Source of the DNA: Clostridiales bacterium
GTDB taxonomy: Bacteria > Bacillota > Clostridia > Lachnospirales > Lachnospiraceae
Reading direction: 5' to 3'
Assembly (NCBI GenBank): GCA_021199255.1
Contig: JAJQIK010000008.1
Coordinates: 1 to 56,057, forward strand
Length of the DNA: 56,057 nt
This document shows, one piece after another, positions 1-54,675 of the stretch. Under the pieces are notes generated by a model that was given only the letters and a program-made list of their open reading frames with translations, had not been told where the DNA came from and did not search any database. Positions within the stretch are counted from its first letter, which is position 1. Each line of letters starts with the position of its first letter. Made by a program: the position numbers and the translations under genes.

Positions 1-123
1 TTGTTGCGAAGAGGCGGCGAGAAATCCGTGAAGACGGTTTCTCGTCTGCCATCAGACAAATTTGTGACGCTCCGGCACAAATTTGAGTGTGAAAAATCAG
101 CATATCAATGTGATTTTTCACAC
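1..123 (+). repeat. Composite palindromic repeat, copy 1 (cut by window edge)
   Basis: Three consecutive hairpins are visible. A GAGAAA/TTTCTC stem (17-45) has inner arms CCGT/ACGG around a GAAG loop. A CAAATTTGTG/CACAAATTTG stem lies at 57-85. A GTGTGAAAAATCA/TGATTTTTCACAC stem lies at 87-123. The preceding GCAAC/GTTGC hairpin is cut by the window edge. The copy runs straight into copy 2, forming a tandem pair. Confidence 0.85.
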
Positions 124-298
124 TAATCACCATTTCTGAGCAACTTGTTGCGAAGAGGCGGCGAGAAATCCGTGAAGACGGTTTCTCGTCTGCCATCAGG
201 GCTATTTGTTTTCGCCCAGAAACAAATAGCCAAATCCACTTCCAGAGGATTGTGAAAAATCAGCACATCAGTGTGATTTTTCATACTAATCACCATTT
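124..298 (+). repeat. Composite palindromic repeat, copy 2 (tandem with copy 1)
   Basis: Five hairpins in order: GCAAC-TT-GTTGC (140-151); GAGAAA..TTTCTC with CCGT/ACGG inner arms (162-188); GGCTATTTGTTT/AAACAAATAGCC (200-231); an optional AATCC/GGATT stem (233-251); TGAAAAATCA/TGATTTTTCA extended by CAC/GTG (253-283). The unit ends within one base of the stop codon of the ABC gene at 299. It contains the second-hairpin sequence GGCTATTTG, whereas copy 1 carries CAAATTTGTG at the same place. Confidence 0.88.
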
Positions 299-2080: not shown

Positions 2081-3832
2081 CTAAAGCCTTTCCGTCCCGC
2101 CGGTCTGTGAATAGTAGATTTCCTGATAGACCTGACAGTTCGCCAGTAATTCCTTGTGGGTTCCCATACCCACCACTTCGCCGTCGTCCAGCACAATGAT
2201 CTGATCCGCATATTGAATGGAGGAAGCCCTCTGGGATACAATAAACACCGTCATATCCGCGTCCAGATTCTGAATAGCCTTACGGAGCGCGGCGTCCGTA
2301 GCATAATCCAGCGCCGAAGCGCTGTCGTCCAGAATCAAAATCTCCGGCTGACCCACTAAGGCTCTGGCGATGGTTAATCGTTGTTTCTGCCCGCCGGACA
2401 GATTTCTGCCCCCCTGGGCAATCTGCGCGTCCAGCTTTCCCGATTTCTGTTCCACAAAATCTTTCGCCTGCGCCGTCTCCACCGCCCGCCACAGTTCTTC
2501 TTCCCCGGCGTCCTGCTTTCCCCACAGCAGATTCGCCCGAATCGTTCCCTGAAAAAGAACGGCTTTCTGTAACACAACGCCCACCTTCCGCCGCAGCTCT
2601 TCCATGGAATAATTGCGGACGTCTTTCCCGTCTACCAATACCGCACCGCCAGAAGCATCATAAAAGCGCGGAATCATATTGACCAGGGAGGATTTGCCGG
2701 AGCCGGTGCCGCCGATAATCCCCACAGTCTGTCCCTTTGGTACCCTAAAATCAATATCCGACAGGGACTCGGCTCCCGCGCCTGCGTAAGCCAGATGTAC
2801 GTGGCAAAATTCCACCGCGTACCTCTTTTCCGGTTCCGAGCCTGCCTCCCGTACAGGGTCTGCTGGCAGGTTCTGCTCCCATGCCATAGAAGAACGAAGC
2901 TTCAACACATGATCGATTCGGTTCGCGCATGCCAGCGCTTTGGTAATCGTGATAATCAGATTGGCCAGCTTTACCAGTTCGATTAGAATCTGGGACATAT
3001 AATTGACCAAAGCAACCACTTCTCCCTGGGTGATGCTTCCCTCATTGACCCGCACCGCCCCGGTATAGATCAGGACGATCGTCGCCACGTTGACGATAAT
3101 ATATGTGACCGGATTAGTCAACGCCGATATTCTGCCCACGAAAAGCTGCATATCGGCAAGCTTCCGGTTCTTTTCCTCATAGCGCTCGATTTCTTCTTTT
3201 TCCTTATTAAAAGCACGAATCACTCTGACACCGGTCAAATTTTCCCTGGTAGCGCTTAATACCTGATCTAACTTGGCCTGCACCGTTTTATACATGGGCA
3301 TGGTGAGCATCATGATGCCGAACACTACCACGGACAGAAGGGGAATCGCCACCACAAAAATCAGCGCCGCCTTTACATCGATGGTAAACGCCATAATCAT
3401 AGCGCCGAAGACGATAAAAGGAGAGCGCAGGAACAGCCGCAGGAACATATTGACACCATTCTGCACCTGATTGACGTCGGAGGTCATGCGCGTGATCATG
3501 GTAGAGGTGCCCAGCGTATCGATTTCCGTGAAGGAAAGGCTCTGGATATGCGCGAACAATTCATGCCGCAGTCTTGTGGAAACGCCCACCGCCGCTTTCG
3601 CCGCAAAATACTGCGCCGTGACGGAACAGACCAGCCCAATAATTCCCAGTAAAATGAGCAGTAGTCCCATTTTCAGCACATAGGGCACATTTGCGCCCTG
3701 AATCCCCTGATCAATAATTGCCGCCATGACAAGCGGTACAAACAGCTCGAAGGTTGCCTCAAGCATCTTAAAAAGCGGCGCCAATACCGTTTCCTTTTTA
3801 TAATTTCTCAAATAAACCCATAAATTCCTCAT
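2081..3832 (-). CDS. ABC exporter half-transporter, degenerate NBD
   Basis: The 583-aa partner half-transporter: membrane domain at about residues 15-310, then an NBD with Walker A GGTGSGKSS and signature LSGGQKQ. The residue after Walker B is Asp, not Glu (LILDDSASALD), and the H-loop histidine is Gln (SQRASS). These are the changes known in the non-hydrolysing site of heterodimeric exporters, so this gene and its downstream neighbour are inferred to work as one transporter. The Shine-Dalgarno AAGGAT and the spacer before ATG at 3832 match the boundary sequence of the palindromic repeat just upstream. Confidence 0.93.
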   Translation of the reverse strand: MRNLWVYLRNYKKETVLAPLFKMLEATFELFVPLVMAAIIDQGIQGANVPYVLKMGLLLILLGIIGLVCSVTAQYFAAKAAVGVSTRLRHELFAHIQSLSFTEIDTLGTSTMITRMTSDVNQVQNGVNMFLRLFLRSPFIVFGAMIMAFTIDVKAALIFVVAIPLLSVVVFGIMMLTMPMYKTVQAKLDQVLSATRENLTGVRVIRAFNKEKEEIERYEEKNRKLADMQLFVGRISALTNPVTYIIVNVATIVLIYTGAVRVNEGSITQGEVVALVNYMSQILIELVKLANLIITITKALACANRIDHVLKLRSSMAWEQNLPADPVREAGSEPEKRYAVEFCHVHLAYAGAGAESLSDIDFRVPKGQTVGIIGGTGSGKSSLVNMIPRFYDASGGAVLVDGKDVRNYSMEELRRKVGVVLQKAVLFQGTIRANLLWGKQDAGEEELWRAVETAQAKDFVEQKSGKLDAQIAQGGRNLSGGQKQRLTIARALVGQPEILILDDSASALDYATDAALRKAIQNLDADMTVFIVSQRASSIQYADQIIVLDDGEVVGMGTHKELLANCQVYQEIYYSQTGGTERL

Positions 3833-4000
3833 ACTAATCCTTCATTCCGGAGCGTATGCGACGGGGCGACGCAAATGTCAGATTTGCGTCTGCCATCAAT
3901 CAAATTTGTGACACTCCGGCACAAATTTGTGTGTGAAAAAATCAGTGCATCAGCATGATTTTTTCACACTAATCCCCATTTCTGAGCAACTTGCTGCGAA
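3833..4000 (+). repeat. Composite palindromic repeat, copy 3 (sequence-divergent stem)
   Basis: It has the same architecture as the other copies, but the second hairpin is wholly different in sequence: GACGCAAAT-GTCAG-ATTTGCGTC (3868-3890) replaces the GAGAAA/TTTCTC stem. It is followed by CAAATTTGTG/CACAAATTTG (3901-3929) and GTGTGAAAAAATCA/TGATTTTTTCACAC (3931-3969), where an extra A is matched by an extra T. A truncated second unit (GCAAC-TT-GCTGC) follows to about 4000. The remaining 77 bp to the LCP gene hold only a weak CAGCAG/CTGCTG pairing. Confidence 0.85.
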
Positions 4001-7372: not shown

Positions 7373-9829
7373 CTATGATTTATCATTGTGTACTGTAAAC
7401 ACTATCTTTTTATTCTTAAGCCCCACGGTTACTTTATCTCCCCGCTTCACACTGCCGGAAAGGATTTCCTCCGCCAGCGCGTCCTCGATTTCCGATTGAA
7501 GGGCTCTTTTCATCGGTCTGGCTCCCATCTTGACGTCCATATGCTTCTCGATCAGATATTCCTTCACAGAAGCGCTGATGGTCAGTTCAATCTCCATCTG
7601 CTCCTTGCAGCGTTTCCTCAGATTACCGGAAAGCAGGGAAACAATCTGCTTCATGTTATCCTTATTCAGCGGATGGAACACCATAATCTCATCAATCCGG
7701 TTAATAAATTCCGGCTTGAAAAGACGCTTGACCTCTTCCATCACATTGGACTTCATCTTATCATAATTCTGGGCTTCCGTCTGCGCCGCGCCGAAGCCCA
7801 GATTCTTCGGGTCAATGATACGCTGGGCGCCCGCGTTGGAGGTCATAATCAGAATGGTATTCTTAAAGCTTACCTTTCTGCCCTTGGAATCCGTAATATG
7901 CCCATCGTCCAACACCTGCAGCAGAACATTAAACACATCCGGGTGCGCTTTTTCAATCTCATCAAACAATACCACCGAATAAGGGTTCCGGCGAATCTTT
8001 TCCGATAGCTGCCCGCCCTCTTCAAAACCCACATAGCCCGGAGGGGAACCGATCATCTTGGACACCGAATGACCTTCCATATACTCCGACATATCCACGC
8101 GGATCAGCGCATTTTCCGAGCCAAACATGGCTTCCGCAAGGGCTTTGGAAAGCTCCGTTTTGCCCACGCCGGTAGGCCCTAAGAACAGGAAAGAGCCAAT
8201 GGGACGGTTGGGATCCTGTAGACCCACTCTGCCTCTGCGCATAGCCTTGGCAACCGCCGTGACGGCTTCCTCCTGGCCGATGACGCGCTTGTGGAGAATC
8301 GTTTCCAGCTTCAGCAGCCGCTCGCTCTCTTTTTCCGCCAGCTTTTTCACCGGAATTTTCGTCCAGAGCGCCACGACCTCGGCAATCTCATTCTCGCCTA
8401 CGACATAGGCACGCTTCTCCTCTTCCTTCTCCAGCCTTTTCACGAGCCGGTCGTATTTCTTAATGCAGGCCTCCTGCTTTTTCTTCAGCTCCGCCGCCTG
8501 CGTAAAGGCTTCCATACGGATAGAACGCTCTATCTGCAAATCTATTTTCTTGATTTCATCGGACAGCTCCTTCATCTGATCCGGCCGTTTTGCGACTTGG
8601 AGCCGCACAGCCGCCGACGCTTCGTCAATCAGATCGATGGCCTTATCCGGAAGATTCCGGTCGTTAATATATCTGGCCGACAATGCCACCGCCGCGCTGA
8701 TGGCTTCCGGAGTAATGGTCACGCGATGGTGCTCTTCATATTTATGGGCGATCCCGCGCAGAATATTCTCCGCTTCCTCCAGAGTAGGCTCCTCTACCGT
8801 TACCGGCTGGAATCTTCTCTCCAGAGCCGCGTCCTTTTCTACATATTTACGATATTCCGCTATGGTTGTAGCGCCGATTAATTGAATCTCGCCCCTTGCC
8901 AGCGAGGGCTTTAAGATATTGGAAGCGTCGATAGCCCCCTCCGCGCCCCCCGCGCCGATAATGGTATGCATTTCATCGAGAAAGAGGATCACATTGCCGT
9001 CCTCGATCACTTCCCTGATGACTCTCTTAATTCTTTCCTCGAACTCGCCGCGGTACTTGCTGCCCGCAACCATGCCTGAAAGATCCAGCGTCAGCACTCT
9101 CTTATCCTGCACGGTAAAAGGCACGTCGCCCACCGCAATCCGGGCCGCCAGGCCTTCCACCACCGCAGTCTTACCCACGCCCGGTTCCCCGATCAGGCAG
9201 GGGTTATTCTTGGTTCGCCTGCTTAAGATCTGGATGACACGGGTAATCTCGTCTTCTCTGCCAATCACCGGATCTAATTTGCCTGCCCTGGCCAGCGCCG
9301 TCAGATCCCGGCTGTACTGCTCCAGCGTGGAAGCGCCGCTTTTCTTCTTATTCTGCTTTCTGCTTAAATCTTCCTTATATAAAGAGCCGTCCTCGCCCAT
9401 AGCCACCAGCACGTCCACATATAGCTTCTGCACCGATATGCCCATGGTATTTAACAGCCTGACCGCTACATTCTCGCCTTCCTTTAAGAGCGCCAGCAGA
9501 ATATGCTCTGTTCCCGTCTTTTCACTGTGAAAACGCTCCGCCTGCCTGTGGGCTTCCTCAAGAATACTCTGCGCCCTAGGGGAATACCCGTCTCTCTCGG
9601 CGAGCAGCACGGAGCTTTCGGGAGCGATCAGATCCTTAATCATCTCTTTGAGCTGCGCCGGGTCCACTTTATTATTCTGTAGAACGGTCGCCGCTACTCC
9701 TGTATTTTCACGGAGCAGGCCAAGAAGGATATGCTCGCTTCCCACATAACTCTGTCTTAAGCTTTTGGCTGCTCTCTCGGCTAACATCAATGCTGCTTTT
9801 GCCTTATCTGTAAATTGTGGCTGCATCAA
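7373..9829 (-). CDS. clpC: AAA+ unfoldase ClpC
   Basis: 818 aa. This Hsp100 unfoldase feeds substrates to ClpP. Domain order: N-terminal double Clp repeat (about 1-145), first AAA+ module with [10 protein letters not shown] and DEMHTIIGAGG, a short coiled middle segment with a UVR-like KKKQEACIKK stretch (about 415-460) that separates ClpC from ClpB, and a second AAA+ module with [10 protein letters not shown]. The usual Firmicute operon ctsR-mcsA-mcsB-clpC is not seen. Instead the start codon overlaps the stop of a GntR-type regulator by 4 bp. A CtsR gene or site could lie elsewhere; I saw no repeat resembling a CtsR operator close by. Confidence 0.96.
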   Translation of the reverse strand: MMQPQFTDKAKAALMLAERAAKSLRQSYVGSEHILLGLLRENTGVAATVLQNNKVDPAQLKEMIKDLIAPESSVLLAERDGYSPRAQSILEEAHRQAERFHSEKTGTEHILLALLKEGENVAVRLLNTMGISVQKLYVDVLVAMGEDGSLYKEDLSRKQNKKKSGASTLEQYSRDLTALARAGKLDPVIGREDEITRVIQILSRRTKNNPCLIGEPGVGKTAVVEGLAARIAVGDVPFTVQDKRVLTLDLSGMVAGSKYRGEFEERIKRVIREVIEDGNVILFLDEMHTIIGAGGAEGAIDASNILKPSLARGEIQLIGATTIAEYRKYVEKDAALERRFQPVTVEEPTLEEAENILRGIAHKYEEHHRVTITPEAISAAVALSARYINDRNLPDKAIDLIDEASAAVRLQVAKRPDQMKELSDEIKKIDLQIERSIRMEAFTQAAELKKKQEACIKKYDRLVKRLEKEEEKRAYVVGENEIAEVVALWTKIPVKKLAEKESERLLKLETILHKRVIGQEEAVTAVAKAMRRGRVGLQDPNRPIGSFLFLGPTGVGKTELSKALAEAMFGSENALIRVDMSEYMEGHSVSKMIGSPPGYVGFEEGGQLSEKIRRNPYSVVLFDEIEKAHPDVFNVLLQVLDDGHITDSKGRKVSFKNTILIMTSNAGAQRIIDPKNLGFGAAQTEAQNYDKMKSNVMEEVKRLFKPEFINRIDEIMVFHPLNKDNMKQIVSLLSGNLRKRCKEQMEIELTISASVKEYLIEKHMDVKMGARPMKRALQSEIEDALAEEILSGSVKRGDKVTVGLKNKKIVFTVHNDKS

Positions 9830-14146: not shown

Positions 14147-14164
14147 TTGTTTCCTCACTTTAAT

Positions 14165-14316
14165 CTCCATTCCTGAGCGTTAGCGACGGGGCGAAGAGAA
14201 AGCCACGAAAGTGGTTTCTCTTCTGCCATCAGAGCCATTTGTTTTCGCCCAGAAACAAATAGCCAAATCCTCTTTCAGAGGATTGTGAAAAATCAGCATA
14301 TCAATGTGATTTTTCA
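14165..14316 (+). repeat. Composite palindromic repeat, copy 4 (between purM and purN)
   Basis: Hairpins: GAGAAA-g-CCAC-GAAA-GTGG-TTTCTC (14194-14222), where both arms differ from the CCGC/GCGG form together; ATTTGTTT/AAACAAAT (14237-14260); AATCCTC/GAGGATT (14266-14284); TGAAAAATCA/TGATTTTTCA (14286-14316). The purM stop codon (TGA, 14314-14316) is the last triplet of the final stem. The copy therefore lies inside what should be one pur transcript. Confidence 0.88.
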
Positions 14317-15345
14317 TACTAAGATAACCTCTTTCTCTCCCCTTACGACTCTGCCTACCACATAGGCCTTTTCGCCTGCCGCCTGAATAGCCTTGACGGT
14401 TTGGTCCGCGTCTTTGCTTTCCACGGCCAGCACCATGCCAAGACCCATATTATAAGTATTATACATCATCTTCTCTTCCAGGCTGCCGGTTTTTTGCAGC
14501 AACTGAAAAATCGGAGGGATCGGATAACTGTCCTTTTGCATCTCCGCCGCCGTGCCCTCCGGCAACATTCTGGGAATATTCTCATAAAAGCCGCCGCCTG
14601 TGATATGGCTGCAGCCCTTTATCGTCACACCAGCCTCCTTCACCAGACGCAGCGCCCTGACATAAATCTTCGTAGGCATAATCAGCGCTTCGCCAAGCGT
14701 CATTCCCAGCTCGTCATAGTAAGTGTTAAGGCTTTCCTTCGTCATTTCAAAGACCTTGCGCACTAGGGAAAACCCGTTGCTATGTACGCCGGAAGAAGCA
14801 ATGCCGATCAACGTATCTCCCTCCCTGATATGCTCTCCCGTGATCAGATCCTTCTCGTCTACCACGCCAACCGCAAATCCTGCCAGATCATACTCGTCCT
14901 CCGGCATCAGCCCCGGATGCTCCGCCGTCTCACCGCCGATCAAAGCCGCGCCCGCCTGCTTGCAGCCCTCCGCCACGCCTTTGACGATTCCGGCGATCTT
15001 CTCAGGATAATTTTTGCCGCAGGCAATATAATCTAAGAAAAACAAAGGTTCCCCGCCCGCGCAGGCCACATCGTTGACACACATCGCCACGCAGTCGATT
15101 CCGACGGTATCGTGCTGATCTAACAGGAACGCCAGCTTGATCTTAGTCCCCACGCCGTCCGTGCCGGATAATAATACCGGCTTCTCCATGGTCTTCAGCT
15201 TCTCCATGGAAAAAGCGCCCGAAAAGCCGCCCAGGCCGCCTAACACCTCCGGCCGCACCGTCTCCTTCACATATTTTTTCATCAGTTCCACCGACTGGTA
15301 TCCGGCTTCAATATCAACGCCTGCTGTCTTGTAATCCATTGCCAT
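14314..15345 (-). CDS. purM: Phosphoribosylformylglycinamidine cyclo-ligase
   Basis: 343 aa, the usual length. AIR synthetase performs the ATP-dependent ring closure of FGAM. Family segments seen: GGFSGAF near residue 40, [11 protein letters not shown] near 60, GGETAEHPG near 138 and the C-terminal [13 protein letters not shown]. Start ATG at 15345 is preceded by GGAGG. It follows purE by 52 bp. The stop codon falls inside palindromic repeat copy 4. Confidence 0.97.
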
Positions 15346-15988: not shown

Positions 15989-18076
15989 TCAGCGGAATGC
16001 CCTGTTCAGTTCCTCACACCCCGGCAGCACAAATTGACCGTCCTGAATAATACAGATTTCCTCTCCCGTCCTGGTCAGAACCGACAGCCTGCCCAGTTCA
16101 TCATAGGGAATGGTAATATCCGTATGACACTGAAAATATGCCTTACTGACATCTGTGTCACGTAAAACTGACACCTCGTTATCTCTGGCAATAATTTCTT
16201 TTCCGTCAGGATTATAAACCTTCACGTCCTCCGCGTGGGAATAACAGGTATCGCCCACGGCAAAATGAGGCCCCGTCTTTTCGGCAATCAGAATCGGCAG
16301 CTTATCCTCTATGCCGTATTTGCGCGCCGCCACATAGGCCGTCGTATTGGTTCCAATGGCAAATTCTCCGATTGGCAGCGTGTCATGATGGTACAGTACA
16401 TTATCCTTGATATACTTACGGTTTTCTTCAGCCGTCGGGAAATTACCGCACCCATAATCCACGACCATACCGTCCTGGAAACGCAGCCAGATGTCCTTGT
16501 ATTCCAGCTCGTTCAGAAACACCCGCGTTACATGAAGCAGTCCTTCCGTCCCCTGCAGCACCGGAGAAGTAAACACCTCCCCCACCGGAATGTTTACGTC
16601 CGCCACACAATTCTCAAAATTTGTCTGCTTCGCCGGTTCCTGCAATTCGTGCAGCCTGACCGTCATATCCGTTCTGTTGGCGCCGCGTCCTTTGACCTTA
16701 ACAGTCAATCCCAAATCCAGCGTATCGATGATAATTTGCTGAATCCTCTGATAGCGCTTATAATCCAGCGTGTTAATCCTTACGATATCGTCAAAAATTT
16801 CCGCATATTGGGAACCGATATCCGGCACCGGGAAAGCAATGATCGTAAAGCTCCGTTCCTCGCCCTTCAGATACTGATTTTGCAGCGCTCCCGCCCTGCT
16901 CCCATATTCCACGGAAAGCTTCTGCTGCTTCTCCGACAGCTTACAGGCGCTCTTTTTGGTTTCCGGCACAAAGGGCTTCTCCCCAAAAATCTCCACCACC
17001 GCGGGGCCGCCGTGCTCCGCCGCTTCCTTTTGCCACCGTTCGTAAGCGTTCTTCATACATTCCAGCTTCCGTTCCGTCAACAGCTTATCAAGCACCAGCG
17101 CCTGGTCTTCCTTATGGTCATAATCAAACTGCTTATTGGGGTTGGCGCCGGAAAAACCGTTCTTGCTGACGCTTCTTCCCTGAAAAATATTGCTGCCCGC
17201 CCGATAGATCGTGGATTGCAGACCCATCCGGTCAAAATTTAAGATTGCCTGACGGATCATCTGCTCAAATCCAAGATGATACCGGATATTGACCGTCCGC
17301 TTAAGCGAAAGATCTTTATTGCCCACCTCAAAGCCGATACGGTAGCCCTCCGTGCAGGTATCCGCCATCAGCCGTATCCTCTCCTCCGGCAGTCCGTTGA
17401 GATGCCGCGCCGTCTCAAGCTCATTGTCCGTAATATATTCCCCGAAATAATACAGATAGCGCAGATCGGACAAGTCGCTTTCCATAATAATGCGGCGGGC
17501 AAAATCCCGGTCGGCGCAGACCAACTGCGCAATCCGTTCCGCCGATTCCGTTTCATAATAATCGCTCACATACCAGTAAAGAATCTGGCGGACACTCTCC
17601 TCTTCGACGCAGGTCTCCTCCTGTCCGGCACAAACGAACGCCTGATAGACCTCCAGCAAAAGCTCCATGCGGATTACCATAGCGGATCGGTTCTGCTCAT
17701 AGGCCGCCGGGATCAGCCCCCTCAGCTCCGCATACAGAAAGGACAGCATCCGTCCCATTGACTCACCCAGACAATTTACTGCATAATCCGGATTGGCGTA
17801 GCTTTCCCCATAATGCTCCGGCAGAATATCCTCATACAGTTCCCGATTCTGCAGCTGCAGCTGGCTCAGGGACATCTCCCTCAATCCGCCGCTCTCTACC
17901 AGCAGCCATGTCTCATGCAGCTTCACCGCAAAAGAACTCATCTTATTAAAAAAGGCGCAAAATGGCTCTGCGCACATTGACTCATTGGGTATCTCCCGGA
18001 TACGCTCCAACGCCAGAGCATATCGCTCCATCTCCCAATCATCTTTGTCCTGTTCATTGCTATAAAAATCTTCCAT
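15989..18076 (-). CDS. M29 family aminopeptidase, long form
   Basis: 695 aa from the ATG at 18076. The open frame continues 25 codons upstream, but those codons are palindromic-repeat sequence. The C-terminal 350 residues carry thermophilic aminopeptidase (M29) features: GEVFTSP with a metal-ligand Glu, the GMVVDYGC strand, IGEFAIGTN with a second Glu, and EKTGPHFAVGDTCYSHAED with ligand His and Asp. M29 enzymes are usually near 400 aa, so the first 340 residues form an extra helical domain of unknown role. SD TGGAG, supplied by the repeat edge, precedes the start. The peptidase family is well supported; the substrate is not known. Confidence 0.9.
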   Translation of the reverse strand: MEDFYSNEQDKDDWEMERYALALERIREIPNESMCAEPFCAFFNKMSSFAVKLHETWLLVESGGLREMSLSQLQLQNRELYEDILPEHYGESYANPDYAVNCLGESMGRMLSFLYAELRGLIPAAYEQNRSAMVIRMELLLEVYQAFVCAGQEETCVEEESVRQILYWYVSDYYETESAERIAQLVCADRDFARRIIMESDLSDLRYLYYFGEYITDNELETARHLNGLPEERIRLMADTCTEGYRIGFEVGNKDLSLKRTVNIRYHLGFEQMIRQAILNFDRMGLQSTIYRAGSNIFQGRSVSKNGFSGANPNKQFDYDHKEDQALVLDKLLTERKLECMKNAYERWQKEAAEHGGPAVVEIFGEKPFVPETKKSACKLSEKQQKLSVEYGSRAGALQNQYLKGEERSFTIIAFPVPDIGSQYAEIFDDIVRINTLDYKRYQRIQQIIIDTLDLGLTVKVKGRGANRTDMTVRLHELQEPAKQTNFENCVADVNIPVGEVFTSPVLQGTEGLLHVTRVFLNELEYKDIWLRFQDGMVVDYGCGNFPTAEENRKYIKDNVLYHHDTLPIGEFAIGTNTTAYVAARKYGIEDKLPILIAEKTGPHFAVGDTCYSHAEDVKVYNPDGKEIIARDNEVSVLRDTDVSKAYFQCHTDITIPYDELGRLSVLTRTGEEICIIQDGQFVLPGCEELNRAFR

Positions 18077-18242
18077 ACTAATCTCCATTTCTGAGCAACT
18101 TGTTGCGAAGAGGCGATGAGAAATTCGCGAAGGCGATTTCTCATCTGCCATCAGGGATATTTGTTTTCGCCCAGAAACAAATATCCGTGTGAAAAATCAG
18201 CACATCAGTGTGATTTTTCACACTAATCTCCATTTCCGGAGC
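18077..18242 (+). repeat. Composite palindromic repeat, copy 5
   Basis: The clearest full unit. Hairpins: GCAAC-TT-GTTGC (18095-18106); GATGAGAAA..TTTCTCATC with TCGC/GCGA inner arms (18115-18145); GGATATTTGTTT/AAACAAATATCC (18155-18186); GTGTGAAAAATCA/TGATTTTTCACAC (18187-18223). Each stem holds paired substitutions relative to other copies. The unit is flanked by direct repeats of ACTAATCTCCATTTC (18077 and 18221), abuts the peptidase start codon on one side and ends near the DUF6142 stop codon on the other. Confidence 0.9.
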
Positions 18243-22578: not shown

Positions 22579-22700
22579 AGGATTTGGCTATTTGTTTCTG
22601 AGCGAAAGCAAATGGCCCTGATGGCAGACGAGAAACCGCCTTCGCGGATTTCTCGCCGCCGCTTCGCAACAAGTTGCTCAGAAATGGGGATCGTGTCCTG
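22579..22700 (-). repeat. Composite palindromic repeat, copy 6 (inverted, shortened)
   Basis: Opposite orientation to all other copies. GGCTATTTGTTT pairs with AAGCAAATGGCC (22586-22617, including a T-G wobble), followed by CGAGAAACCGC/GCGGATTTCTCG (22629-22655) and GCAAC-AA-GTTGC (22666-22677), then the boundary CTCAGAAATGGGGAT. The GTGTGAAAAATCA hairpin is absent. It lies in a 378-bp gap (22342-22719) between HPt and TPR genes; the rest of that gap shows nothing else I recognise. Confidence 0.85.
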
Positions 22701-32072: not shown

Positions 32073-34253
32073 ATGATGAAAAAAATAATTCCCTGGCTTG
32101 TCGCTCTGTCCATGCTGGCAGGCGCGCTCAGCGGATGCGGGAATACCGATACCTCTGTGGAGACTTCCGGCAGCGAAAGCGCGGAAAATGACGAAAGCGG
32201 CGCGTCCTCCACGGGAACCGCGGAGGAACAAAGCGACGCCGATATGTTTACCGCACGGGATTACGAAATAGGATATGACGAGAGCGACAGCGTCCTCATT
32301 CAATTAAACGGCGATTCCGCTTCCGCCAGCTCAGACAGCGTAGAGATTTCAGGCTCCACGATTACGATTACGGAGGAAGCCACCTATATCCTTACCGGTA
32401 CGCTGGACGACGGCATGATCATCGTAAACGCGCCGGATTCCGCCAAGCTCCAACTGGTTTTCAACGGCGTAAGCATCCACTGTGAGACCTCGGCTCCGCT
32501 CTATATTCTGGAAGCCGACAAGGTGTTTGTCACGCTGGCGGACGGCTCCGAAAACACCCTTTCAGGCGGTGAAACCTTTACTGCCATAGATGACAACAAT
32601 ATTGACGGCGCCGTTTTCTCCAAACAGGATCTGACCTTTAACGGCTCCGGTACGTTAACGGTATCCTCCCCTGCCGGCCACGGCATTGTCTGCAAGGATG
32701 ATCTGGTATTTACCAGCGGCACGTATGTGATCGATTCCGCATCCCACGGGCTTGACGCCAATGACAGCGTAAGAATCGCCAACGCTGCCATTACCATCAA
32801 TGCCGGCAAAGACGGCGTCCACGCGGAAAATTCTGACGATTCTTCCCTGGGCTTCGTATATCTTGCCAGCGGTACGCTGGAGATCGAAGCCCAGGGCGAC
32901 GGCATCAGCGCCGGAGCCTATATGCAGATAAACGACGGTACGTTCGATATTGTGGCGGGCGGCGGCAGTGAAAACGCGTCCAGACAATCTTCCGACTCCT
33001 GGGGATTTTTCAAGGGCAGCCCCTCAGGCGCCTCCGCCACAACAGAGGACGAGGACAGTAGCAGCAGTATGAAAGGCCTGAAGGCCACCGGCACGCTTCT
33101 GATCTCGGACGGTACCTTTACCATCGACTCAGCAGACGACGCCGTCCACTCCAACGCCTCTATTACAATCAACGGCGGAACCTTTGAGATTGCCACCGGC
33201 GACGACGGTTTCCATGCCGACGAAACCTTAACGGTTACCGCAGGAACCATCTCTATCAGCGAAAGCTATGAGGGACTGGAGGCGCTGGATCTGGTCATCA
33301 GCGGCGGCGATATTAATCTGACAGCCAGCGACGACGGCCTGAATGCCGCAGGCGGCACGGATTCCAGCGGTACAGGCGGTATCCGCGGAGACGACAGCTT
33401 CGGCGGCAACAACGCCGGCCAGCAGGAATTTTCCGATGATGAGAATAACCAAAATAGTCAAGATAAACCTGACAGCCAGAGCGCTCCCGACGACCAGAAT
33501 ATACCTGATGCTCCCGACGGACAAAGCGCTCCCGGCGGACAGAATGGCGACGCTCCCGACGGGCAGGGTGCTCCCGGCGGACAGAATGGTTCTGGCGCTC
33601 CCGGCGGACAGAATGGTTCTGGCGCTCCCGGCGGACAGAATGGTTCTGGCGCTCCTGGTGACCAAAGCAGTCAAACTGTACTGGACGGGCAGCAGATGCA
33701 GGCCAGACAGGACAACAGTGAACAGAGTATACAGACGAAGCAGGACAGCACAGGCAGCGACAGCGGACAGACCCGTCAGGGCGGCCGCGGCGGCATGGGC
33801 GGTATGGGCGGTATGTCCTCCTCCTCTAACGGCAGCATTGAGATTTCCGGCGGCACCATCTATATCCAGGCCTCCGGCGACGGCATTGACGCGAACGGTT
33901 CGCTGACGATCTCCGGCGGTACCATCACTGTTTGCGGTCCCACACAGGGCGATACGGCCACTCTGGACTATGATACCAGCGGCATCATTACAGGCGGTAC
34001 CTTTATCGGCACCGGCGCTACCAGTATGGCGCAGACCTTCAGCGACTCCGAGCAGGGCGTAATCACCGTAAAGGTAGGCAACCAATCGGCGGGCACCACT
34101 GTCACGCTGACAGATCAGGAGGGCAACACGATTATTTCCCATACCCCTGAGTTGTCCTATGCCATAGTGATTATCAGTACGCCGGACATTGTTTCAGGCG
34201 AAACTTATACGCTCACGGTAGGCTCGTCCTCGCAGGAAGTGGAAGCAGACTAA
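32073..34253 (+). CDS. Carbohydrate-binding-domain lipoprotein with collagen-like insert
   Basis: 726 aa. A lipoprotein signal (LAGALSGCG, Cys near residue 22), an acidic Ser-rich linker, then many beta-helix-like repeats rich in ISGGTI/ITINGGT turns, as in the Cthe_2159-type carbohydrate-binding domain. Residues about 445-590 are a Gln/Gly/Pro-rich insert containing GAPGGQNGS units. The end returns to beta repeats (GSIEISGGTIYIQASGDGIDANG). Likely surface-anchored and binding acidic polysaccharide. Last gene of the VTC operon, 19 bp after DUF4956, with AAGGAGG. A CotH kinase-like gene often found in such operons is absent. Confidence 0.85.
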   Translation: MMKKIIPWLVALSMLAGALSGCGNTDTSVETSGSESAENDESGASSTGTAEEQSDADMFTARDYEIGYDESDSVLIQLNGDSASASSDSVEISGSTITITEEATYILTGTLDDGMIIVNAPDSAKLQLVFNGVSIHCETSAPLYILEADKVFVTLADGSENTLSGGETFTAIDDNNIDGAVFSKQDLTFNGSGTLTVSSPAGHGIVCKDDLVFTSGTYVIDSASHGLDANDSVRIANAAITINAGKDGVHAENSDDSSLGFVYLASGTLEIEAQGDGISAGAYMQINDGTFDIVAGGGSENASRQSSDSWGFFKGSPSGASATTEDEDSSSSMKGLKATGTLLISDGTFTIDSADDAVHSNASITINGGTFEIATGDDGFHADETLTVTAGTISISESYEGLEALDLVISGGDINLTASDDGLNAAGGTDSSGTGGIRGDDSFGGNNAGQQEFSDDENNQNSQDKPDSQSAPDDQNIPDAPDGQSAPGGQNGDAPDGQGAPGGQNGSGAPGGQNGSGAPGGQNGSGAPGDQSSQTVLDGQQMQARQDNSEQSIQTKQDSTGSDSGQTRQGGRGGMGGMGGMSSSSNGSIEISGGTIYIQASGDGIDANGSLTISGGTITVCGPTQGDTATLDYDTSGIITGGTFIGTGATSMAQTFSDSEQGVITVKVGNQSAGTTVTLTDQEGNTIISHTPELSYAIVIISTPDIVSGETYTLTVGSSSQEVEAD
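33572..33655 (+). repeat. Tandem repeats encoding a collagen-like stretch
   Basis: Three near-identical units of about 27 bp encode GAPGGQNGS. Looser GAPDGQ/SAPGGQ units extend upstream to about 33470. The near identity of the DNA marks a slippage-prone tract inside the lipoprotein gene. Confidence 0.8.
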
Positions 34254-50596: not shown

Positions 50597-51685
50597 TTAT
50601 GTTAATTCCATGGCAACGGAATATCCGCTGCCATCGCTTTCCACACGCGCCATGCTGCCGCAGATCAGGGGTATCATGGGCGGCAAATGCCCGATATCCA
50701 CATCCAGAAGCACCGGCACATTATATTTTTTCAGCGTCTCACAGACCGCCTGATAGTGATCGATACCAAATTCTACGGCCTCCATGCCAAGCCGCGGCCT
50801 GCCGATCAGAAAGCCGCTGCAATGCTCAAACCACCCTCCATGCTCCATCTGCCACATGGCGCGGCGGATTCCCATCAGATTCAAATCGCATGCTTCCAGA
50901 AACCAGAGAATACCGTCCTCCTTATATTGTTCCGCGAACTCCGCCACACGATCATATTGGGTTCCAATCAGATTCACCAGGCAATCCATACAGCCCCCCA
51001 GAAGTCTTCCGGAAAAGGCGATGGAAGGCTGCATGGAATCCTTAGACTCCCGCCCTTTTCCCGCCAGACTCTCAATATTTGTATTGCCGTCCGGCAGCAT
51101 ATATTTGATTTCCGTCTTTTCCGTCAGATGATAGGCAGCCAGGGGCTGCGCCTCATCCTTCAGGGATTCCTTTTCCCATCTGTCATATCCCTGCATGGTA
51201 AGCTTTTCGCCCCGCAGCAGAGCCATCGCGTCCCGCAGTGAAGCATGGGGCGGTTCCATGCCGAAAGCGGCCGCACAGGGTCCGTAGACAGAAGCCGTAT
51301 CGCACAAGGTTGTCAACAAAAATGTAAAATTGGTATTATCCGAATATCCCATATACCATTTCGGCTTTGCCTGCCTGAGCTTTTGAAAATCCACATGATC
51401 CAGAATCTCACACATCAGCTCGCCGCCGCCGCAGGAAATCAGGCAGTCGTTGGTATCGCTGCAATAGTATTCCGTCAGCTCCGTACCGCACCTTTCCGGC
51501 GTATTGCTGATACCCACGCCCGACTGCTCATAGCAGTTGGACCCCAGCTCCAGCCGGAATCCCGCCTGTCTCCATTTCTCCTGCGCATGCAGGAACCCGC
51601 TCTGATAGGGCTCCACCGCGCAGCCAAAAGAGGGGGCTACAAAGCCTATGACGCCGTCTGCCTGTAAAAATTGTGGGTATCTCAT
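50597..51685 (-). CDS. S66 family peptidase (LD-carboxypeptidase/MccF-like)
   Basis: 362 aa. Catalytic Ser in MGYSDNTNF, with Glu and His as in the family (DVDIGHLPPM near the C-terminus). Relatives cleave peptidoglycan tetrapeptides or microcin C-type compounds. No signal peptide, so it is probably cytosolic. The leader and SD (GAGGATTAGATTGAATG) come from the edge of palindromic repeat copy 7. Confidence 0.92.
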   Translation of the reverse strand: MRYPQFLQADGVIGFVAPSFGCAVEPYQSGFLHAQEKWRQAGFRLELGSNCYEQSGVGISNTPERCGTELTEYYCSDTNDCLISCGGGELMCEILDHVDFQKLRQAKPKWYMGYSDNTNFTFLLTTLCDTASVYGPCAAAFGMEPPHASLRDAMALLRGEKLTMQGYDRWEKESLKDEAQPLAAYHLTEKTEIKYMLPDGNTNIESLAGKGRESKDSMQPSIAFSGRLLGGCMDCLVNLIGTQYDRVAEFAEQYKEDGILWFLEACDLNLMGIRRAMWQMEHGGWFEHCSGFLIGRPRLGMEAVEFGIDHYQAVCETLKKYNVPVLLDVDIGHLPPMIPLICGSMARVESDGSGYSVAMELT

Positions 51686-51686
51686 T

Positions 51687-51843
51687 CAATCTAATCCTCA
51701 TTTCTGAGCAACTTGTTGCGAAGCGGCGGCGAGAAATCCGCGAAGGCGGTTTCTCGTCTGCCATCAGGGCTATTTGCTTTCGCTCAGAAACAAATAGCCG
51801 TATGAAAAATCAGCATACCAGTGTGATTTTTCATACTATCCTC
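51687..51843 (+). repeat. Composite palindromic repeat, copy 7
   Basis: Hairpins: GCAAC-TT-GTTGC (51708-51719); CGAGAAA..TTTCTCG with CCGC/GCGG inner arms (51730-51756); GGCTATTTG/CAAATAGCC (51768-51799); GTATGAAAAATCA/TGATTTTTCATAC (51800-51836), where the usual GTGTG/CACAC pair has become GTATG/CATAC on both arms. A relic-like CAAT-TT-ATTG segment follows. The unit abuts the S66 start codon. Confidence 0.9.
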
Positions 51844-51894: not shown

Positions 51895-54480
51895 TCAACC
51901 CTTTTTGCGCGCCGCCAGCGTTCCCTTTTCCAGCTCGATCAATATGGTATCCTTGGCTGCCACCTGATCCGCCAGTATCAGCTTCGCGGACAGGGTTTCC
52001 ACATACTTCTGGATATACCGTTTCAAGGGTCTGGCTCCGTAAACCGGGTTATAGGCGTTTTCCACGATGTAACGCTCCGCCTCCGGCGTCAATTCAATCC
52101 GCAGCTCTCTGTCCGCCAGCCTCCGGTTCAAATCCTCCACGATTAAACTGATAATACCGCCGATGTTTTCTTTCGTCAACGGTTTAAACAGAATCGTTTC
52201 GTCCAGACGGTTCAAAAACTCCGGCCGGAAATGGTTTCTCAAATCTCCCATCACCTGCTGCTCTGCCTCCGCCGTAATATTACCACTGTTATCGATTCCA
52301 TCCAGCAGATAATCCGCCCCGATATTAGACGTCATAATGAGAATCGTATTTTTAAAATCCACGGTTCTTCCCTGAGAATCCGTAATACGCCCGTCATCCA
52401 GAACCTGTAAAAGTACGTTAAAGACATCAGGGTGCGCTTTTTCAATCTCATCAAAAAGAACTACCGAATAAGGCTTTCTTCTGACTGCCTCGGTCAACTG
52501 TCCGCCCTCTTCATATCCCACATATCCGGGAGGGGCTCCAATTAATCTGGAGACAGAATATTTCTCCATATATTCACTCATATCAATACGCACCATATTG
52601 GCCTCGTCGTCAAACAGGGACGCTGCTAAGGCTTTGGCCAGCTCCGTCTTGCCGACTCCTGTCGGCCCCAGAAAGAGGAAAGAGCCAATCGGTTTCGTGG
52701 GGTCCTTGATTCCCGCCTTGGAACGGATAATCGCCTCGGTGACCTTGGTAACGCCTTCCTCCTGCCCGATCACACGCTTATGCAGCTCCTCATCCAGATG
52801 CAGCGTCTTATTTCGCTCGCTCTCGGTCAGCTTAGCCACCGGGATTCCTGTCCACCGGGATATAATCCGGGCGATCTCTTCGTCAGATACGCTCTGATGC
52901 ACCAGCGATAATTCTTCCCCGCCGATTCGTTCTTCCTCTATTTCCAATTGCTGCTTCAACGCCGGCAGCCTGCCATAGCTTAACTCCGCCGCTTTCTCAT
53001 AGTCGCCGTCCCGCTGGGCAATCTGAATCTGGCTGTTGACCTCGTCGATTTCCTCACGAATCTTAGACAGCTTCTCCACAGAGGCTTTTTCATTTTCCCA
53101 CTGTGCCATGCGGTTTTGCAATTCTTCTTTTAATTCCGCCAATTCCTTCTGCAGCCGCTCCAGACGCTCCCGGCTCAGATGATCGTCTTCCTTCTTAAGC
53201 GCCGTCTCCTCAATCTCAAGCTGCATGACCTTACGGCGCAGCTCATCCAGCTCTGTGGGCATAGAATCCAGCTCCGTTTTAATCAGGGCGCAGGCCTCGT
53301 CTACCAGATCAATCGCCTTATCCGGCAGAAATCTGTCGGAAATATACCGGTTCGACAATACCGCCGCGCTGACCAGCGCATTGTCCATAATCTTAACTCC
53401 ATGGTATACCTCATACCGCTCCTTCAGCCCCCGCAGAATAGAGATGGTATCCTCCACCGTAGGCTCATCCACCATAACCGGCTGGAAACGCCGCTCCAGC
53501 GCCGGGTCCTTCTCGATATACTGCCTGTATTCATCCAGAGTGGTAGCGCCGATACAGTGCAGCTCTCCTCTGGCCAGCATGGGCTTCAGCATATTGCCCG
53601 CGTCCATGGCGCCGTCCGTCTTACCGGCTCCCACAATAGTATGCAGCTCGTCGATAAATAGAATAATCTGGCCGTCGCTGTTTTTCACATCGTCTAATAC
53701 CGCTTTTAAACGTTCCTCAAACTCTCCCCGATATTTGGCGCCGGCCACCAGAGCTCCCATATCCAGCGAAAAAATCTTCTTATCCTTAAGTCCCTCCGGC
53801 ACATCCCCCTGCACGATACGCTGTGCCAGCCCTTCCGCCACAGCCGTTTTGCCAACTCCCGGCTCGCCGATCAGCACCGGATTATTTTTGGTTTTTCTGG
53901 AAAGAATACGAACCACATTGCGGATTTCGTTGTCCCTGCCAATGACAGGGTCCAGCTTCTGGCTCCGCGCCTGCTCCACCAGATCCTGTCCATACTTCTC
54001 CAGCGTATCATAGGTGGCTTCCGGATTATCGCTGGTCACCCGCTGGTTGCCCCTCACCGTGGACAACGCCTGCAGGAAACGCTCTCGGGTAATACCGAAC
54101 TCCCGCAGAATCTCTTTCAGCTCTTTATTGGGATGCTTGATCATGGCCAAAAACAGATGCTCTACAGACACATATTCATCGCCCAATGCCTTCGCTTCGT
54201 CCTCCGCCCCGATCAGAACCTTATTCAGATCCTGTCCGATATAAATCTGGCCTCCCTGCACCTTAGTCCGCTTCTGCAGCGCCTGCTCCGCGCGGTTTAC
54301 AAAATATTCCTTCTGTATCTCCATCTTCTCAATCAGCTTCAGAATCAAACTGTCGTCAATGGTCAACAAACTTAATAACAGGTGTTCTTCTTCAATTTCC
54401 TGATTGCCATATTCATACGCAAGCCTCTCGCAGCCTTCCACTGCCTGCATGGATTTCTGTGTAAATTTTGTTAAATTCAT
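51895..54480 (-). CDS. clpB: Disaggregase ClpB
   Basis: 861 aa, the usual length. Hsp100 disaggregase acting with DnaK. Order: N-domain (1-145), NBD1 with [10 protein letters not shown], the long coiled-coil middle domain (about 405-525) that marks ClpB rather than ClpC, and NBD2 with [10 protein letters not shown]. Start ATG has GGAGG. Expression: CIRCE operator and a sigma-A promoter about 300 bp upstream; the leader contains palindromic repeat copy 8. Confidence 0.97.
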
Positions 54481-54482
54481 AA

Positions 54483-54675
54483 TAACCTCCTATTCTGAGC
54501 TAAAAGCGTCGGTACGACGCTTGTGCGAAGAGGCGATGAGAAATCCGCGAAGGCGGTTTCTCATCTGCCATCAGGGCTATTTGTTTTCGCCCAGAAACAA
54601 ATAGCCAAATCCTTTTTCAGAGGATTGTGAAAAATCAGCACATCAGTGTGATTTTTCGCACCAACCTCCTATTCT
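54483..54675 (+). repeat. Composite palindromic repeat, copy 8 (in the clpB leader)
   Basis: The first hairpin is replaced by an unrelated one, AAGCGTCG-GTA-CGACGCTT (54504-54522). Then GATGAGAAA..TTTCTCATC (54535-54565), GGCTATTTGTTT/AAACAAATAGCC (54575-54606), AATCCT/AGGATT (54608-54626) and TGTGAAAAATCA/TGATTTTTCGCA with a wobble pair (54626-54660). It lies downstream of the predicted clpB start point, so it would be transcribed as leader RNA. Confidence 0.88.

Follow-up and report, generated by a model that had tools for sequence, protein, structure and literature searches.

What is the short folded sequence at 18081..18223, and why should something so elaborate stand immediately before a gene? 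The window (the whole stretch of 56,057 nt analysed here) holds eight such sequences, which a sequence-only reading had described as a family of modular palindromic repeats whose stems change in pairs, so that the fold is kept. All eight copies are present where that reading placed them, copy 3 with another H1 and copy 8 with another first hairpin, as it had stated, and the description as a modular palindromic family stands. The orientation has to be revised, as gene sense is the strand opposite to the one that had been read. The main point was missed because the reading followed the strand antisense to the genes: in most copies the repeat is linked to a start codon, its ends carry a Shine–Dalgarno sequence (SD) and a start codon, and it inserts at TA.

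Along the strand first read, the unit consists of TA, ATCYCCATTYC, a 5' module hairpin with a GAGC..GCGA core, GGC-H1-GCC, ATCAG, H2, H3 and TA, with an optional AATCC..GGATT hairpin between H2 and H3, and the element mostly measures 130-165 nt. By eye, the 5' module core might accommodate tandem G.A pairs. In copy 5 the element body of 143 nt (18081..18223, minus strand; ends placed by analogy with the filled and empty sites described below) lies upstream of the gene starting at 18076. Its gene-side TA (18079..18080) and far TA (18224..18225) are assigned from the sequence and from the same filled/empty pairs. The 5' module hairpin with its GAGC...GCGA core (18091..18111) and H1 (18112..18149) follow from the predicted fold and the alignment of copies, H2 (18155..18186) from the predicted fold, and H3 (18187..18223), which extends to the element end, from the predicted fold and the H3 pairing test. 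The ATG of the M29-peptidase-like gene (15989-18076) lies at 18074..18076 on the minus strand, 2 nt past the TA, and is preceded by an SD carried by the copy itself (18081..18086, minus strand, sense GGAGAT). At its other end the copy carries a start codon of its own (18219..18221, minus strand, sense GTG), 2 nt past the far TA, and before this start stands an SD-like sequence, in sense GGAAATGGAGAT (18226..18237, minus strand), which appears to be left over from the end of another copy. ORF calling extends proteins into the element, so that the frame 15989-18151 gains the false N-terminus MADEKSPSRISHRLFATSCSEMEIS from the repeat; the true start of the gene is most likely 18076.

The other copies repeat this arrangement with variations. 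Copy 1 (1..123, minus strand) is cut by the contig start and stands in tandem with copy 2 (126..286, minus strand), which has the extra AATCC..GGATT hairpin; the TA at 124-125 is common to both. Copy 3 (3837..3969, minus strand), with the other H1 type, lies upstream of an ABC transporter (2081-3832), and copy 4 (14163..14319, minus strand) between purM and purN, the latter with GTG at 14158. Copy 6 (22586..22693, plus strand; 22579-22700 as first read) has the opposite orientation, no H3 and no adjoining start codon. Copy 7 (51694..51836, minus strand) lies upstream of an ORF at 50597-51685, with TTG 2 nt and ATG 6 nt past the TA. Copy 8 (54485..54661, minus strand), with the other first hairpin, lies upstream of the gene at 51895-54480, which is probably ClpB-like; its far-end codon is GCG, so the start carried by the element is lost there. 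Elsewhere in the window, tandem units at 33462-33661 encode a repetitive stretch, and two genes at 7373-9829 and 51895-54480, presumably Clp-type ATPases, account for two other long direct repeats.

How widespread is the family? In its own genome (3.08 Mb in 93 contigs) BLAST gives 46 matches (40 of the 89 first-look candidates being scored), nhmmer gives 50 over the window and 30 fetched own-genome loci, fragments included, and an H3 query adds three further places with 40 of 58 candidates scored; this genome has at least 50 hits. Within the genus, 35 of 60 genomes carry the family, own included (E<=1e-4, some matches being single modules). In a sample of Lachnospiraceae the distribution is patchy, with 13 of 150 genomes and 12 of 149 genera positive, own included (E<=1e-8). 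A copy of the own genus and a copy of another genus share 94% identity, and the family has probably moved between genera. Copies stand at or near contig ends, at window position 1 and on own-genome contigs C57, C53, C21 and C54, and the repeat family therefore breaks assembly.

Is it the fold that persists, rather than the letters? The fold energy of copy 5 lies 9.6 s.d. below shuffles on the strand first read and 7.3 s.d. below on the other. That stem arms change in pairs, as had been claimed, is confirmed in agreement by an H3 test and by the alignment of 111 full copies. The H3 test used 28 of 38 distinct H3 sequences, all of 37 nt, leaving out 8 of other length and 2 of 37 nt, while 26 of 124 copies were unparsable for H3. 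Pairing holds in 97.3% of cells against 87.7% in shuffles, and both sides have changed in 36 cells against 7.7, values reached by none of 500 shuffles in either case; with slid partners pairing falls to 29-57%. By cruder counts, the 6 doubly changed pairs are reached by 32 of 500 shuffles and the 14 further pair types by 24 of 500. Among the 111 full copies, double changes are kept in 20 of 28 consensus pairs (for example, UA 49/GC 49/AU 9 in the 5' module and AU 55/CG 51 in H1), and 2947 of 3091 cells are Watson-Crick, cell counts which are not independent events since the sequences are related. Wobbles on the strand first read comprise 69 G.T cells against 18 A.C, or 35 against 17 when collapsed by column and genome, a bias that is a hint only, because the structure was predicted on that strand, which itself favours G.T. 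It points weakly to the strand complementary to the mRNA; on that reading the fold might belong to a mobility intermediate rather than to an mRNA leader. The earlier view of a fold kept by paired change, comparable to BOX or ERIC and matching no family that could be named, agrees with these results. As that view proposed, the fold may be kept by selection on RNA or cruciform structure or by an enzyme that recognizes structure.

The position of the copies is more telling once they are read in gene sense. We considered 124 copies with the gene-side end resolved (49 from the own genome, 75 from the genus), a start being scored from ORF length, without gene calls, as an ORF of >=40 aa within 20 nt. 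A start codon lies within 20 nt in 102 copies (ATG 90, GTG 11, TTG 1), and in 86 of the 124 the arrangement is exactly TA-NN-start. In five of the 102, all of them inner units of tandem copies, the codon scored belongs to the following unit; setting these aside leaves 97 copies, with 81 at 2 nt. By the same criterion 27% of random TA sites have a start, as do 20 of 120 places on the element's other side, and when ATG and an ORF of >=60 aa are demanded the figures are 91 of 124 copies against 10.5% of random TA sites. Regardless of any ORF, (A/G/T)TG stands 2 nt past the TA in 99 of 124 copies. Among rows from other genera (24 of 33, the 9 others being of the own genus, and best-matching loci only), the start is at 2 nt in 17 of 24 and within 7 nt in 23. 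The genes adjoined at their starts include purN and the ClpB-like gene; at 51692 the TTG at 2 nt was counted, and the likely start is the ATG 6 nt away. Entry is at TA, mostly at TA-NN-start, and in one orientation to the gene.

What do the two ends carry? On the gene side, in gene sense, the element closes with GGRGAT, an SD, followed by TA, two bases and the start codon. An SD tetramer precedes the gene start in 87 of 88 copies with a start at 1-3 nt, at a spacing of 4-6 nt in 85, and an anti-SD duplex of <= -4 kcal/mol is found there in 100% of cases against 60% of shuffles; in many copies CTC or CTCC immediately precedes the GGRG. The far end reads TA-NN-codon-AAA, with TA-NN-(A/G/T)TG in 107 of 111 aligned copies (GTG 61, ATG 23, TTG 23, CTG 0). 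The four without a start codon have GCG twice, once in window copy 8, GGG, and in one case TGA through misalignment. Within 18 nt before this codon an SD tetramer occurs in 81 of 96 distinct copies, 67 of them at 4-6, against 56% of shuffles, and is missing in 15 of 96; the anti-SD duplex of <= -4 kcal/mol gives a modest contrast, 89% for the copies and 72% for shuffles. A number of the upstream SDs, apparently 18226-18237 among them, are remnants of older copies and not host sequence. The ends of the element mimic its target: the gene start faces the element's GGRG-type SD, and on the other side the element's NN-(A/G/T)TG-AAA adjoins upstream host sequence that mostly has an SD.

Direct comparison of filled and empty sites bears on the insertion itself. 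The joined flanks of 11 copies from two close genomes, G006 and G034, were searched in both, and six have an element-free orthologous place. Site B is exact, the empty allele reading GGGGAGGG-TA-ATATGG and the filled one GGGGAGGG-TA-[GTGTG...GGGGAT]-TA-ATATGG. Sites A and C fit a TA insertion with one substitution; at site D the place fits, with few changes and a length difference of one base; site E carries two additional bases, and its dinucleotide is altered; and site F aligns poorly on the old-SD side. The empty sites A, B and D have an SD directly before the spot and ATG directly after it. In the filled state, A, B, D, E and F have ATG 2 nt past the TA, but at site E this ATG is followed by an immediate stop and the ORF starts 13 nt away, so that E is not at a gene start; site C reads TA-AT-ATT and is not at a gene start either. 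The target rule therefore seems to be a DNA sequence and not only real gene starts. The comparison fits a recent insertion at TA which at three sites would have separated an old SD from its ATG, and the TA at both ends could be either a duplication or a common core. Similar flanks had hinted at a target-site duplication of 11-17 nt, an idea dropped because the filled/empty pairs show at most TA, and integron-like cassettes were rejected on the conserved order of neighbouring genes.

Absence of the element is also seen at places occupied in the window. The sites at 3833, 14165 and 18077 have no element in the syntenic genome G045 (~79% identity), and at the 14165 site, in the 20 relatives inspected out of 80, the sequence upstream of purN reads by eye as purM's end with no element. 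Among 80 named loci fetched by purN, profile matches with E<1e-7 occur in three, L060 (UBA7196), L062 (UBA3282) and L070. Tandem runs with common unit junctions, in L292 (G030) and L052 (G008), fit a new copy having entered the end of an older one.

We consider it probable that the family is a non-autonomous mobile repeat whose targets are translation-initiation regions and which restores such a region on either side of itself, making its insertion nearly silent. The interrupted gene is probably still translated, and the anatomy fits a nearly neutral insertion, in which the old SD would pass to the element ORF and the element SD to the gene. Ribosomes might thus proceed from the old SD through the short element ORF to the new SD, or re-initiate, and so reach the gene; if they stay on the message, insertion within housekeeping operons would be tolerated. 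The hairpins, mainly H3 and, at the opposite end, the 5' module, may be handles for an enzyme acting in trans, which would recognize the hairpin ends together with the target, and this service could be why the fold is kept by paired changes. The tandem copies would be accounted for because the unit junction, GGRGAT-TA-NNRTGAAA, itself looks like a target.

Could the position at gene starts instead reflect which copies survive? Insertion might occur at TA or similar sites with little preference, and copies between SD and start might persist because the gene now relies on the element SD, so that the copy can no longer be lost (entrapment). The good spacing of that SD in 85 of 88 copies would be expected on such grounds, most sampled copies are undated, and two of the young sites, C and E, lie away from gene starts. 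Five of the six young sites (A, B, D, E and F), however, have ATG 2 nt past the TA, with long ORFs opening there at A, B, D and F, and the (A/G/T)TG triplet occurs in more copies (99 of 124) than the 86 that also have a long ORF. Selective survival also predicts copies away from genes in numbers, and 22 of 124 is few. We regard this explanation as unlikely, and retain targeting of initiation regions as the better account.

What kind of enzyme might move the repeat? REP/RAYT repeats and IS200/IS605 MITEs have hairpin ends without inverted termini, and the present family shares this feature. A repeat derived from IS200/IS605 or RAYT and moved as folded single-stranded DNA by a Y1 transposase since lost would explain the lack of terminal inverted repeats (by eye), the hairpins near both ends, the single orientation and the wobble bias, and the Y1 domain (PF01797) does match in two sets of genomes, in 7 of 18 and in 6 of 16, copy-rich ones included. 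Yet PF01797 has no match in the own genome (G000) or in several other copy-rich genomes, and the Y1 loci fetched from relatives have unlike ends and no family-profile match above 4.1 bits. The target, TA with a variable NN before ATG, also differs from the contiguous tetra- or pentanucleotides used by the Y1 family, and a Y1 origin appears rather improbable to us.

Other enzymes fare no better as resident mobilizers. The IS110 DEDD domain (PF01548), which a bridge-RNA derivative would call for, exceeds its cut-off in 8 of 18 genomes and not in G000, the IS630 DDE domain (PF13358) is absent from G000 and matches in 3 of 17 genomes, in 2 of them over the cut-off, and resolvase-family enzymes, which a serine-recombinase cassette would call for, are present in 14 of 16 genomes, with 14 matches in G000, but have none in the copy-rich G135 and G168. 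A resident mobilizer of the Y1, IS110, IS630 or resolvase type was rejected on this ground, each being absent from some copy-rich genomes. In G000 a PF01548 match under the cut-off (C54:53006-53239) lies inside a 1420-aa ORF, which we guess to be a RuvC-type nuclease such as Cas9, and similar large ORFs occur in several relatives. No autonomous longer copy with an internal ORF was found among 20 (mostly H3-only matches) plus 3 loci (C10, C68 and C54), all of them complete but diverged copies, tandem copies, copies cut by contig ends or copies with deletions; with 40 of 89 and 40 of 58 first-look candidates scored, the unscored ones could hide one. A group II intron, which would begin with GUGUG, was rejected on the lack of an Rfam match and on a foot that varies (GATTG, GGTTG).

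Is the family then a relative of known interspersed repeats? In the parts of PMC3049150 drawn on here, BOX, RUP and SPRITE of Streptococcus pneumoniae are short, dispersed, folded and mobile, BOX is modular and can hold expressed ORFs, with the start codon in boxC and without good SD candidates, BOX and RUP have terminal inverted repeats, and nothing is said of insertion between SD and start codon. The present family is likewise short, dispersed and folded, but by eye has no terminal inverted repeats. Enterobacterial ERIC/RU-1 and related units are described, in the portions used of PMC2229807 (see also PMC2759123), as MITE-like, intergenic and 127-168 bp long, with discussion of MITE ORFs; in the text of PMC2229807 covered here, TA is given as the insertion site of RUP and neither 'start codon' nor 'ribosome binding' appears. 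A TA site is thus common to RUP or IS630-type MITEs and the present family, whereas inverted ends define the former and the latter ends in ATCYCC.. and GTRTGAAAAATC..; of the marks of IS630/Tc1-type MITEs, the family has the TA target and lacks terminal inverted repeats and, in its own genome, a related transposase. The sequence of ERIC/RU-1 differs from that of the present family. In general kind the element resembles BOX and ERIC, being short, folded, mobile and present in many copies. It is a small interspersed folded mobile repeat, set apart by a target rule; searches of open-licence papers in PubMed Central gave no description of such an element or such a rule.

A regulatory role would give the fold a different meaning. 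The repeat might be a leader family—an attenuator, a thermometer or a protein-binding 5' UTR—spread as a regulon, with the mRNA fold controlling access to the SD. The copies lie mostly 5' of genes in mRNA sense, the folds are strong on both strands, and the CTC or CTCC before GGRG in many copies could cover the SD. Against this, the genes adjoining the window copies are of unlike kinds, three of the sites have no element in G045, and the wobbles lean towards the strand complementary to the mRNA. Rfam gives no match at gathering score in the window, and around copy 5, up to E 5, only two miRNA matches (E 0.27 and 1.2). We find a regulatory leader distinctly improbable, and the mobile repeat rebuilding initiation regions remains our preferred interpretation.

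The element's own start codon raises the question of whether a peptide is made for its own sake. Of the 89 ORFs followed from there, 34 stop early, another 34 end at the junction, 13 continue beyond the gene start and 8 are without a stop for 600 nt; of the junction-ending ORFs, 15 have the stop just before the gene start and 11 an ATGA overlap. It is very improbable that the element is a small gene for a peptide VKNHTDVLIFHT..MADANLRFASPRR..NAPEWR. In favour of one, sense frame 0 has 74 stops, where the two remaining sense frames have 286 and 231, and is open through in 52 of 97 copies. It is matched, however, by antisense frame a0 (51 of 97); palindromes hold frames open on the two strands alike, there is variation in module types and frames, and the 34 early stops fall in some copies at codon 5 or 14-16. 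A fixed coding role was rejected on the early stops and the equally open antisense frame; we therefore regard the start codon and SD, not the peptide, as the parts that matter.

What would such an element mean? We suggest, tentatively and at somewhat less than even odds, that its attachment site is the translation-initiation region itself (SD-TA-NN-ATG), that its ends re-create both initiation regions, and that it is served by a class of enzyme not yet recognized for such a function, which would make its transposition translation-transparent. Self-splicing introns and inteins spare the genes they enter by removing themselves. If the interpretation preferred here is true, the repeat represents another solution, which is to enter the gap between SD and start and rebuild initiation on both sides, and very many genic target sites would be available to it in each genome. 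The family would be an orphan mobile system whose sharp target rule should help in finding its enzyme. It would account for false N-terminal extensions and for spurious small ORFs when gut genomes are annotated, and offers natural translation devices.
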